From Candidatus Kaiserbacteria bacterium (GTDB lineage Bacteria > Patescibacteriota > Minisyncoccia > Phycocordibacterales > UBA2100): a DNA stretch of 39,668 nucleotides. Made by a program: the position numbers and the translations under genes. The notes beneath the pieces were generated by a model. The model searched no databases. It saw only the letters and a program-made list of their open reading frames with translations, and was not told the DNA's origin. The first letter of the stretch is position 1, and each line of letters begins with the position of its first letter. Below are positions 10,610-28,523 of this stretch, in pieces. The DNA lies in contig JAHFMV010000010.1 in the NCBI GenBank assembly GCA_023267655.1, forward strand, positions 1 through 39,668. The letters are read 5' to 3'.

Positions 10610-11311
10610 TCAGTCAAGTTCTAGCTCATGAAAGTCCTCACCCCTCAGGTATTTCCCTTCCAATAAATCTCTGCCGAAAGTAATCAGATCTTCTTCCCCA
10701 AAAATTTCATCTATGGCTTCAAAGTCGACTAACGAACGTTGGCGCAAACGGAGATAGTCCGCGAGACTATTAAAGGGATCCGACTGAGCCCACTCGAGCG
10801 CTTGTTTGTAGTTTTGTATCGCATTTTGAAACCCATGCGGATATCGTTCAAATGGATTTTTTATTTGTATATATGCGGCCAGATACTGCAAGTGCACATC
10901 AGAGTCAACAACTCGAGCTCTGTACGGTCCTTGGAAAAGTGAGCCTCTTTCTTTGTATTTCGTATTGAAATAGGCTGCCATACTTGTACACACGCGCTGC
11001 ATGAATTTTGCAATTCCGTCTTCCGTGCGTTCCTGCAAAAGTATATGAAAATGATTATCCATCAGGCAATATGCAAGGATGGAAACGTACGGCGCAGGCT
11101 CCCCCCATGTTTCTGGACGTTTGAATCCTGCGCGAATATGTTCTGGCGCAATCTCTCGCTCCCAATTACGAGGCACTGAGTCGTCATTCAGATATTTGAT
11201 AAGTCTCAAAAAACGCCATCGATCAGATTCGTCTCGGACGATGTTCGCCTGCCGCGCACCTCGTTGGACAACATGGACAATGACGTCTTTCCCAAAAGTT
11301 TCTTTTCGCAT
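10610..11311 (-). CDS. REP-associated tyrosine transposase (RAYT, Y1 HUH family)
   Basis: 233 residues of the IS200/IS605-like single-strand HUH nuclease family. The opening HVVQRGARQANI and the HUH pair H87-x-H89 in CLMDNHFHILLQE are clear. The catalytic Tyr is most likely Y114 in MAAYFNTKY, followed by the family pattern RGSLFQGPYRA. RAYTs nick and rejoin single-stranded REP hairpins and are usually domesticated single-copy genes rather than self-mobile. Here palindromes of one family lie just beyond both ends of the gene, supporting a cognate RAYT/REP pair. The gene separates grpE from dnaK. The start ATG (11311) matches the family N-terminus. Confidence 0.92.
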   Translation of the reverse strand: MRKETFGKDVIVHVVQRGARQANIVRDESDRWRFLRLIKYLNDDSVPRNWEREIAPEHIRAGFKRPETWGEPAPYVSILAYCLMDNHFHILLQERTEDGIAKFMQRVCTSMAAYFNTKYKERGSLFQGPYRARVVDSDVHLQYLAAYIQIKNPFERYPHGFQNAIQNYKQALEWAQSDPFNSLADYLRLRQRSLVDFEAIDEIFGEEDLITFGRDLLEGKYLRGEDFHELELD

Positions 11312-16484: not shown

Positions 16485-17807
16485 CTAAAAATCGGCTGCT
16501 GGATCGGTGAGAATGACCTTGATTGTGGTCGCGTCTTGCGGAAAGGCATGTCTCCAGAACGGTGTAATGCGCGCCCGAGCCTCTTCGATAGCCGGAAAAC
16601 CCTTGATAATTGCTTGGAATGCTGTCTCCGAGCGGCCGGCAAGGGCTTCCGCGAGCGCCTTGGTATCTACATTCCAGATAAGCTGTCCTCGGCCTGCCAC
16701 GGTAAAGGTAATCGCCTGGACGCCAAGGTCGGGACCGTTCAAGGCTCCGACAGGCTGCGCGGTCACCTCGCCAAATCGAATGGAAACCGACTGCCCTTCG
16801 GCATCGGCGCTCACGGCTTGCGCTACCGCATGTGCAAAAGTCTCAGTCGGGAAAACCGGAATGGTAACCGTTGCGCGCTCGTGGATGCGGACGCCGCCGC
16901 CGGCCTCCGATGTCGGCGCGAGCGTTTCGAATGCGATTGCCGCGAGGCCCGGGAACGTGAGCGATCCTTGCGGCGCGGTCTTTTGCAATTCATTCGCTTT
17001 TTCCGTCAGACGATTGCGCACTTCAGCTTTTGACGATTCGAGAACTGCCGGTGAGACTGCGGGCCGATCCCCCGAGAAGCCGCCCGTGAATGCCGCGGTC
17101 GATTTCGCATAGACCTTCGAGTATTCCGGCGAAGATTTCAATCCGGGGACATTGAACGTATCGGGATTAACGTTGTATTTTGGGCCGGTTTGATCAGCGA
17201 AGACCGTTACGTTTATGGTTCCTGGTGCCGTTCCTTTTGCGGCAGGGACATCGACTGATGCGGGAATGCGGAAAATAAGACCGGCCGAATTTTGGAAGCG
17301 TGTATTTTTAATGAGCCGAGCTTGTTTTGCCGTTTCGTTAAAAACGGTGATATTACCCGTCGCTTTTTCTTCGGCATGTTCAGTGCCATTTGCCTGCACG
17401 ACAGCGGAATCATCAAACACTTGCGAAATAACGGTGTAGGCAATCGTACCTGCGGTTGCCGATGCTGCCGGATATGCAGTAAGTGGATTCGACGTATCAA
17501 AGGTCATTGTGTGCGTATGCGGCGTCACCGTGATCGACGTCGAGGGGAAGAATACAAACAACGCGGCGACTGCAAGTACGATAAGTGCGATGATCGCCGC
17601 GATCCACACGCCCCACCGTGAGCGACGCGTAACTTCTTCGTGTTCGTACTCGGGTGGTCGCTCTGGCATCCGCGGAGGTGCTTGTAACTTCACGCGCGCG
17701 GCTGATGGCCGGAAGTCTCGAATTGATCGCGCGCGAGACGCAGGGACGGGCATCTCCTTTTCCGAACCGTCGTCTGGGGTGATGTCTTGAGAATAGTGAC
17801 GAACCAT
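16485..17807 (-). CDS. Membrane-anchored baseplate-J-like protein
   Basis: 440 residues. A proline-rich and charged cytoplasmic N-terminus (1-64) precedes one membrane helix (about 66-86, VWIAAIIALIVLAVAALFVF). The long outside part is beta-rich and contains the baseplate J/gp47-like segment GNITVFNETAKQARLIKNTRF ... GLIFRIPASVDVPA near 160-200. Proteins of this type are often labelled baseplate J in CPR genomes, though no phage genes are nearby. The start at 17807 has TATACT nine bases upstream. It follows the actin-like gene by 23 bases on the same strand, suggesting joint function at the envelope. Function is unknown. Confidence 0.7.
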   Translation of the reverse strand: MVRHYSQDITPDDGSEKEMPVPASRARSIRDFRPSAARVKLQAPPRMPERPPEYEHEEVTRRSRWGVWIAAIIALIVLAVAALFVFFPSTSITVTPHTHTMTFDTSNPLTAYPAASATAGTIAYTVISQVFDDSAVVQANGTEHAEEKATGNITVFNETAKQARLIKNTRFQNSAGLIFRIPASVDVPAAKGTAPGTINVTVFADQTGPKYNVNPDTFNVPGLKSSPEYSKVYAKSTAAFTGGFSGDRPAVSPAVLESSKAEVRNRLTEKANELQKTAPQGSLTFPGLAAIAFETLAPTSEAGGGVRIHERATVTIPVFPTETFAHAVAQAVSADAEGQSVSIRFGEVTAQPVGALNGPDLGVQAITFTVAGRGQLIWNVDTKALAEALAGRSETAFQAIIKGFPAIEEARARITPFWRHAFPQDATTIKVILTDPAADF

Positions 17808-17830
17808 GATGCAAGAAGTATACCCCACGA

Positions 17831-18988
17831 CTACGCCGTTTGCTCAAGAATGTTCACATACCCTGCCGCGACGCCAATACCGGTATCTGCAATACCCGAT
17901 TTCCACGTCACGACGTCGGTCAGGTGCTCTGGCGTGAGCGTCTCGACGACAAGCGGCTGCATAGTCGCCGTAAATTGTGAGAAATCAAGACGTGAGAAAA
18001 AACCTTGAAGCCACGGCGAGAGTTCCACGGGAGCAGCGAGAATCGCGTTGTTCGGTAAACGGCGTTTTGCGGCAAGTGTCGCAAACGATTCCCCAAATAC
18101 TTTTGCAAGGTCTGGTTCGAGACGCGCGAGCGAATCTTTGAGCGCTTTACATGCGTCGGTTGAGCACGTATCGGTCGAGAGCATGCGCAATTGTGTCAGT
18201 GTTTCTTCCGGCATTCCCGCGCTTGAAATTCGCTTGATGATCGTGGTGAGGCCTTCCGGCACTCCCGCATTTTGCGATACCGTTTCGCGCAGAAAAACAG
18301 AACACGTGGTCGTCGAGCCGCCGACATCGAGAACGACGTAGCGATGAATGTCCGGCATGTGTTCGCGCAAGAGTGTGGAGAGCGCAGTGAGTCCCGATCG
18401 CACGATGATATTTCTTCCCGGCGCTACTTTGCCGAGGCGCTCTTTGACGCCGCGGAGGATTTCGGGATGCACTTCGCTTTCGTAGGCGACAACGCCCGCG
18501 CGCACCACGCGTTTCCCGAGCGGGTTTCCGGTCGGATAGCCGTTCAGATACACCTGCATCACGCCGGTTTCGAGGATGGAACTTTTGTTAAAATCTGACG
18601 GCTCGGTGAGTGCTTTTTTTGCGAGCGTCGCGATTAGGTCTTTCGACACGGCTACCTCTTTGGGGAATACTTCTTCTGCGTGCGCCGTCCGCAGTCGCGT
18701 CCAAGGCGACCGTATGATCGCGTATATGGTCTGCGGTTGCTTCGGCGCATGCGTAGCGTCGCCTCCGGCGTATGCTTTCAATACTTTGTCCGCGCATTCT
18801 TCAAGCAGCTGCACAACCGCGCTCGCACTCTGATCTTGTGTCCGCTCTTCCAGGGGAAGTCGCATTCGCTCGCTCGCGAGGATTGTTGCCTGCGTCTTTG
18901 AAAGCAGAGCAACAGACACGCCGACGCTGACGTCTTCGACATCGGCAACAAGCACCACTTTCCCTGAAGTGCGCTTCAATGAAAACAT
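17831..18988 (-). CDS. Actin-like ATPase (FtsA/PilM-type fold)
   Basis: 385 residues. A phosphate-2-like motif YVVLDVGGSTTTCSVFL lies at about 217-233, and an N-terminal strand pair VVLVADVEDVSVGVSVALL at 11-29 stands where phosphate-1 usually is, though it lacks the canonical DxG. The size and layout match FtsA/PilM-like members of the actin superfamily. No N-terminal amphipathic helix or C-terminal membrane peptide is obvious. It probably assembles at the membrane with the protein encoded next. PilN, PilO or FtsZ genes are not adjacent. The start at 18988 is supported by TATACT seven bases upstream. Confidence 0.65.
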   Translation of the reverse strand: MFSLKRTSGKVVLVADVEDVSVGVSVALLSKTQATILASERMRLPLEERTQDQSASAVVQLLEECADKVLKAYAGGDATHAPKQPQTIYAIIRSPWTRLRTAHAEEVFPKEVAVSKDLIATLAKKALTEPSDFNKSSILETGVMQVYLNGYPTGNPLGKRVVRAGVVAYESEVHPEILRGVKERLGKVAPGRNIIVRSGLTALSTLLREHMPDIHRYVVLDVGGSTTTCSVFLRETVSQNAGVPEGLTTIIKRISSAGMPEETLTQLRMLSTDTCSTDACKALKDSLARLEPDLAKVFGESFATLAAKRRLPNNAILAAPVELSPWLQGFFSRLDFSQFTATMQPLVVETLTPEHLTDVVTWKSGIADTGIGVAAGYVNILEQTA

Positions 18989-19064: not shown

Positions 19065-19079
19065 ATTTGCATTCAGCCT

Positions 19080-19268
19080 CTACTTTGACTCGAAATATCC
19101 GAAGTAAATGGCTGTGATCACACCACCCCATATGCCATATGTCATTTGGTGCGTGTATACTTTCCAGTATTCCATTTGCTGGAAAAGTTGAATCCCGAGC
19201 GCTTTGTCAACGTAATGCTGCGTCGCCGCAGCAGCTATGATTACGATCAACAAGATAAGCCAGCGCAT
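19080..19268 (-). CDS. Small membrane protein (62 aa)
   Basis: The protein has an N-terminal membrane helix (WLILLIVIIAAAATQHYV), a polar middle (QLFQQMEYWKVYTHQ) and a second hydrophobic segment (GIWGGVITAIYFGYF). No family recognised. The start ATG has GGAGAGG five bases upstream, and a clear promoter precedes it within the end of alaS. A terminator follows. This promoter-SD-terminator unit argues that it is a real expressed gene. Confidence 0.7.
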   Translation of the reverse strand: MRWLILLIVIIAAAATQHYVDKALGIQLFQQMEYWKVYTHQMTYGIWGGVITAIYFGYFESK

Positions 19269-27473: not shown

Positions 27474-28523
27474 TCAAGTCCCCAAATACAACGCCTTCAG
27501 CCGCAAATGCTCCTCATACGTTTTCGAAAAATGCGTTACGTGATTGTGATCCGCGAGATAGAAAAGATACCCTTTGTCGATCGGATTTACCGCAGCTTTG
27601 AGCGATGAGAAACTCGGGCTATCAATCGGCGTCGGCGGCAAGCCTTTGTTGGCATACGTATTGTACGGATCTTTTTTATTGGCGAGATCTTTTTTCGTCA
27701 GATCGAACGTCGTGTAACCGAGACTATAGAGAAACGCCGCGTCGACTTGGAGCGCCATGCCGATTTTGATGCGACGCCAAAGAACGCCCGCGATCATTTG
27801 TCGATCTTGCATGGTGAAGCCTTCTTTTTCGAGAATCGACGCCATAATGACGATGTCTTTCAGCGAGTGGCCGGATTTGGTGACATCGCCAACTAATTTC
27901 TCAATGTTTGAATCAAAATTCTGGCGCAGTGCTTCGATGACGGTGTCTTCGTTTGCGTTCGGCAAAAAGAAATACGTGTCCGGAAACAAATAGCCCTCTT
28001 GCGGCCGCGCTTTGTCGATGAAGCGGTCAGCGTCGAAACGCTGCAATTGCGATGCAAATAATTTTGCCATCTCTTTGGTCGTGGCGCCTTCAGGGACGCG
28101 GAAGCGGATCGGCTCGAGGCCATAGGCGCCGGTCGTGATCGCCCGAGCGACGGAGAGTACGTCTCTTGGTTCTTTAAAAAGATAATCGCCGGCTCGGACA
28201 CCGCGATCACGGCCCAGCAGAATAACTGCAGTGCGGAATGCATATGCATGTTGTACAACGCCTTGTGCCTGCAATAGATCGCCTACCTGCGCGGCGGTTG
28301 CACCTTCCGGGACATTCACGAGTTCTCCCACCGGAAATTGCTGCGGCGGCGCGATCGTATACATGTACACGACAAGCGCCGTACCGCCGCCAATGAGGAT
28401 CATCAGCATCGAGCGACGATTGGAATGCTCGCGCCATTCGAGCGCGAGGCGCTGCGGTTCGCTATAGAGCCACTCGAAAACGCGGTATGAATATTCCTTC
28501 AGTTTGTGCAAAATTGGGTGCAT
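27474..28523 (-). CDS. mltG: Endolytic murein transglycosylase MltG (YceG)
   Basis: 349 residues. One membrane helix (about 39-56) is followed by the LysM-like domain (VPEGATAAQVGDLLQAQGVV) and a second VPEGATTKEMAKLF segment. The catalytic Glu is in IMASILEKEGF (near 232). The C-terminal motifs YNTYANKGLPPTPIDSPS and YLFYLADHNHVTHFSKTYEEH are typical. It cleaves nascent glycan strands outside the membrane to set their length. The start lies six bases after the stop of the upstream membrane-protein gene, so they form a unit. Confidence 0.95.
   Translation of the reverse strand: MHPILHKLKEYSYRVFEWLYSEPQRLALEWREHSNRRSMLMILIGGGTALVVYMYTIAPPQQFPVGELVNVPEGATAAQVGDLLQAQGVVQHAYAFRTAVILLGRDRGVRAGDYLFKEPRDVLSVARAITTGAYGLEPIRFRVPEGATTKEMAKLFASQLQRFDADRFIDKARPQEGYLFPDTYFFLPNANEDTVIEALRQNFDSNIEKLVGDVTKSGHSLKDIVIMASILEKEGFTMQDRQMIAGVLWRRIKIGMALQVDAAFLYSLGYTTFDLTKKDLANKKDPYNTYANKGLPPTPIDSPSFSSLKAAVNPIDKGYLFYLADHNHVTHFSKTYEEHLRLKALYLGT

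Follow-up and report, generated by a model that had tools for sequence, protein, structure and literature searches.

What does an actin-like cytoplasmic protein do when its gene is paired with that of a membrane-anchored, baseplate-J-like protein in the midst of translation genes? We addressed this question computationally for a gene pair in the window, the 39,668-nucleotide stretch of DNA analysed here, which belongs to a genome (G000) of 1.09 Mb that is 98.9% complete. Both genes lie on the complementary strand. The first (17831..18988, -) encodes an FtsA-class actin-like protein of 385 amino acids, hereafter the scaffold; its open reading frame opens at 19072 in the program-made list, and the ATG at 18988 yields a protein beginning MFSLKR. 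The second (16485..17807, -) encodes a bitopic envelope protein, hereafter J, of 440 amino acids from an ATG at 17807, or of 447 amino acids from the GTG at 17828 with which the frame is listed (16485-17828, -). We accepted the ATG start, which yields MVRHYSQDITP, because the N-terminal motif of the family (M-x-K-x-x-x-Q-D-I/V-V-P) begins there, and with this start the two genes are separated by exactly 23 nucleotides, the spacing given in the initial annotation for two adjacent same-strand genes. On one side the pair is flanked by alaS and on the other by infA, rpmJ, rpsM, rpsK, rpsD and rpoA (window annotation), which bears out the earlier remark that it has no phage, pilus or divisome genes around it. 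A small open reading frame (19080-19268) separates alaS from the scaffold gene and is not conserved in relatives.

The AF2 model of the scaffold (pLDDT 93.6, pTM 0.92, 73 sequences) predicts the FtsA fold with high confidence, including the 1C subdomain. Its best Foldseek matches are Thermotoga FtsA (E 3e-19), and structural comparison with VIA gives Z 26.4 to FtsA (7q6g; 3.4 Å over 345 residues), 22.6 to PilM (2ych) and 16.5 to MreB. In hhalign profile comparisons, the scaffold reaches 97.85% (E 6.5e-13, 311 columns) against an FtsA profile built from its own genome and relatives and 96.2% against PilM; it is FtsA-class more than PilM-class. Neither window protein scores above a curated cut-off against Pfam, NCBIfam or PDB sequences. 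The window scaffold obtains 14.5 bits against Pfam FtsA (PF14450), under the cut-off of 31.8, which is passed by scaffold homologues in other classes (e.g. L138, L133 and L134). The scaffold signature LNGY.T.NP.GK.A, which is of the FtsA 1C type and opens with LNGY at residues 148-151 (18536..18547, -), aligns in the profile comparison with the FtsA stretch DG..V.GRP.GM.G, which we take to lie in the 1C subdomain; N149, G150, Y151 and P156 are at least 90% conserved across the 73 sequences. The nucleotide-binding motifs are partly degenerate. A phosphate-2 region is present at residues 217-230 (18299..18340, -; family D-I/V-x-G-E-V-T-D), the phosphate-1 loop of the window protein reads DVEDVS, and the Gly-Gly adenosine motif of FtsA and PilM is missing throughout the scaffold family. 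Given the missing Gly-Gly motif and the altered phosphate-1 loop, ATP hydrolysis is doubtful, so that of the FtsA/PilM-fold ATPase originally proposed the fold stands and "ATPase" is better read as "actin-like fold".

The second protein was described at the outset as a single-span protein with an exported J-like domain, and this description holds. In its AF2 model (pLDDT 87.9), residues 1-70 are disordered and the ordered part follows a single transmembrane helix at residues 72-92 of the 447-amino-acid form (17553..17615, -; a DSSP helix in the model). Exactly one transmembrane segment is predicted in 61/61 homologues, with on average 3.7 Lys and Arg residues before it versus 1.6 after it, and the positive-inside rule predicts an N-in/C-out topology. 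The predicted exported part contains a beta-barrel (residues 153-250; 17079..17372, -) that VIA matches to GlxA, a galactose oxidase homologue of Streptomyces lividans (5lqi; Z 15.1, 1.5 Å over 95 residues, 28% identity), and then to the phage Mu baseplate (9ki1 chain H; Z 12.4), with other baseplate J and wedge proteins lower. As modelled, the exported part is nearest to the GlxA barrel, with phage gpJ second; however, only the barrel is common to GlxA and J, and the remainder of GlxA is unmatched. Sequence profiles point in the same two directions, towards a phage baseplate wedge (phrog_6, E 1e-4) and the Pfam GlxA barrel (E 0.0018, under cut-off). The base around the barrel (about residues 132-325) gives a weak SIMPL-like match (Z 6.9) that may reflect a common arrangement only. 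At the other end of the protein, most homologues carry the consensus M.K...QDIVPP..RSIR.IP (17757..17807, - in the window) within the disordered, low-confidence cytosolic tail, and D15 is conserved in 59/61; the window tail departs from this consensus downstream of QDITP.

The two genes travel together. A single-sequence search recovered the scaffold in 114/148 genomes of the order, with one match apiece (it is single-copy in the source genome), and all 72 relatives examined have J immediately downstream of it, with strand and gene order unchanged; the pairing is not a matter of chance. The gap is below 400 nucleotides in 71 of the 72 and 515 nucleotides in the other. Across the window and 20 wide neighbourhoods, both genes are present in 21/21 and alaS in 20, with rpoA and rpsD found in 19, and the context alaS-scaffold-J-infA is constant. 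A phylum-wide search with the J profile found J in 360/380 Patescibacteria genomes. Scaffold-profile matches occur in 266/287 phylum genomes and may take in FtsA and PilM, so adjacency to J served as the scaffold criterion outside the order: among genomes with both positions listed, the scaffold lies directly upstream of J in 68/70, the exceptions being a match at the end of contig C8 in one genome (G262) and a match on a contig other than that of J in another (G161). The initial annotation had held that the idea of a joint machine would fall if the genes were rarely adjacent in relatives; they are adjacent almost throughout, and the pair is a phylum-wide feature of a housekeeping locus. In a collection of genome contigs, the single window J sequence found no match, and the core J alignment matched contigs that, wherever their records state a lineage, are all patescibacterial (Kaiser-, Taylor-, Zambryski-, Nomura-bacteria and others). 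With three control genes (alaS, rpoA and rpsD) taken out, the distances of scaffold and J remain correlated across 18 loci (partial r 0.45; Mantel p 0.006), which is modest evidence for co-evolution of the two proteins, and the synteny with the translation operon could mean nothing beyond co-expression.

In architecture, the pair resembles PilM-PilN and FtsA-FtsN and belongs to neither pathway. As in PilM-PilN, an actin-like protein comes first and a bitopic one second, the latter with a short conserved motif at its cytosolic N-terminus, and as in FtsA with FtsN, a cytosolic scaffold of full-length FtsA fold is combined with a bitopic partner; the complex structures behind this analogy (2ych, 5eou and 7q6i) are among the Foldseek matches of the scaffold. 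In contrast to PilM-PilN, the pair has no PilO, PilC or PilB neighbours, is kept where PilC is absent and exports a different fold, and unlike FtsA-FtsN, its scaffold is not linked to ftsZ, has no adenosine GG motif, and is partnered with a GlxA/gpJ barrel protein instead of a SPOR protein. The open-access literature yielded no description of a scaffold-J pair, and the pair is absent from the main text of a Tn-seq study of Patescibacteria (PMC10633639). The pair probably forms one undescribed cell-envelope machine.

We propose, with a probability of roughly 0.55, that J is expressed together with a cytoplasmic scaffold of the FtsA class dedicated to it, which binds the N-terminal cytosolic tail of J and arrays J for a core function in the envelope. 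By likeness to PilN and FtsN, the J motif is the expected docking element, and we infer direct binding, in which the QDIVPP-RSIR tail would be gripped by the 1C-like subdomain in the manner of PilN by PilM and of FtsN by FtsA. Clustering or polymerisation of the scaffold at the membrane would then array J into an envelope patch or ring, with the exported barrel-on-base region of J supplying folds of the ring or baseplate type. Such a module most likely serves the wall or division, and neither piliation nor a specific hook for host cells. A core role is favoured by the ubiquity of the pair, by its housekeeping location and by its MltG neighbourhood: scaffold-J adjoins RuvX-MltG in other classes, with RuvX and MltG directly after J in several loci, and in the window MltG is encoded at 27477-28523, 8.5 kb from the pair.

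Division itself offers another reading, in which the scaffold is a second FtsA at the FtsZ ring and J an FtsN-like septal activator. The nearest solved folds of the scaffold are indeed FtsA, FtsZ is found in 278/287 phylum genomes, and MltG and RuvX are the neighbours just described. However, the source genome has one FtsZ, with a canonical FtsA just upstream of it on contig C25; this arrangement, together with the location of the pair, rules out that the scaffold is the standard divisome FtsA, an identity that the initial annotation had named as fatal to its proposal. Moreover, four near-complete genomes (G211, G231, G364 and G405) have J and no FtsZ match, evidence against a strict role of J at the FtsZ ring, and some orders have FtsZ and J with no scaffold beside J. 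We therefore consider a divisome paralogue rather unlikely. FtsW/RodA is near universal (285/287) and does not separate these hypotheses, save that one of the four genomes, G211 (99% complete), has neither an FtsZ nor an FtsW/RodA match and nevertheless carries J.

Surface attachment, the function first suggested for the pair, would have the scaffold position J as an external adhesin that holds a host cell. The predicted export of a beta-structured domain fits this idea, as does the host dependence of Patescibacteria known from cultivated members (PMC12206443). Against it, J is near-universal in the phylum and belongs to a housekeeping locus beside alaS and translation genes, no adhesin-like repeats were seen, and the pair is retained in two families without the type IV pilus platform protein. 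A specific role in gripping the host thus lacks support, and we regard it as improbable.

An alignment module for type IV pili, with the pair acting as PilM-PilN does, is very unlikely. PilM is the second-best fold of the scaffold, the architecture is PilM-PilN-like, and two loci (L140 and L141) have a J paralogue behind a T2SSE ATPase; there, however, no further pilus gene was seen, and the product of the gene just upstream is a membrane protein that Pfam does not match, and we rejected this link. No pilus genes lie near the window pair, and its genome has two PilM genes elsewhere. No sampled genome of family f129 (G171, G206, G248, G263 and G277) or f139 (G188, G220, G234 and G289) has PilC (PF00482), yet J is present in 9/9 of them, with the scaffold directly upstream in eight; two, G171 and G206, are single-contig genomes. 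Retention of the pair without PilC argues against a role in pilus alignment and, together with the separate PilM genes, rules out that the scaffold is a PilM copy. Members of both families apparently do without type IV pili (no T2SSF/PilC match), and each has a single FtsW/RodA match. Finally, a remnant or domesticated part of a phage tail or contractile injection system is barely credible: J shares its barrel with the J/gp47/gp6 and wedge proteins of baseplates (Z about 12), but it is anchored by a transmembrane helix, chromosomal and syntenic in its distribution, its best match is the cellular GlxA, the neighbourhoods of 20 relatives show an alaS/ribosomal-protein context and not a tail or injection gene cluster, and neither two IMG/VR queries (no relative confirmed) nor phage GenBank (no relative found) returned a viral or phage relative, on which ground we dismissed a phage origin.

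Returning to the scaffold-J module, its composition varies among lineages. In other classes, J is extended at its N-terminus by a domain of about 90 amino acids (YIDVDEEITSVIDKIK...), with the scaffold still upstream. This cytosolic domain (YIDVDEEITSVIDKIK...LLQS.VNLKLLK) precedes J in L133, L134, L136-L139 and L145, and the L145 example had no match in a Pfam scan. Several orders of the window's own class have J flanked by alaS and infA and lack a scaffold gene at that place, so J can work without the scaffold. In the order of G447, J matches occur in 39/41 genomes, mostly as a single open reading frame of about 740-815 amino acids (some matches are in pieces, broken up in alignment or where a contig ends), and no separate scaffold gene was seen in the two loci read. 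The first 260 residues of this long J score 58.6% against PilM and 6.6% against the scaffold family in profile comparison, and show sub-threshold matches to DUF1464 and UvrC_RNaseH; from these weak signals the region reads as a possible reduced actin/RNaseH-type domain. If an actin-like domain is confirmed, the long J would represent a natural scaffold-J fusion. The notion of a two-part machine consequently survives as regards the pairing itself and fails as a strict rule, given J without scaffold in some orders and the possible fusion in one.

Patescibacteria are a very large and poorly understood group with reduced genomes, in which many conserved genes have no assigned function, and a near-universal J, in a pair that is syntenic with translation genes and makes clear structural sense, offers a testable prediction about minimal envelope organisation. 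It is conceivable, at somewhat less than even odds, that the pair is an ancestral trait of Patescibacteria and constitutes, alongside the divisome and the pili, a third envelope machine of the actin-like kind. In it, the scaffold would organise GlxA/gpJ-barrel proteins into a ring or patch across the cell envelope, and one lineage would have fused both parts into a single protein.

Some smaller observations concern the loci themselves. Long J proteins are encoded at L143:6072-8363 and L144:6056-8281, the former with a sortase gene directly after J. The short J paralogues (about 380 amino acids; L140:6685-7830 and L141:7217-8350) lie directly downstream of a PilB-type T2SSE ATPase; thrS follows J in L141, and in L140 the distance to a thrS-family gene is about 4 kb. 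Elsewhere in the window, an IS200-like (Y1) transposase-type protein is encoded at 10610-11311 (-), between the dnaK and grpE genes.
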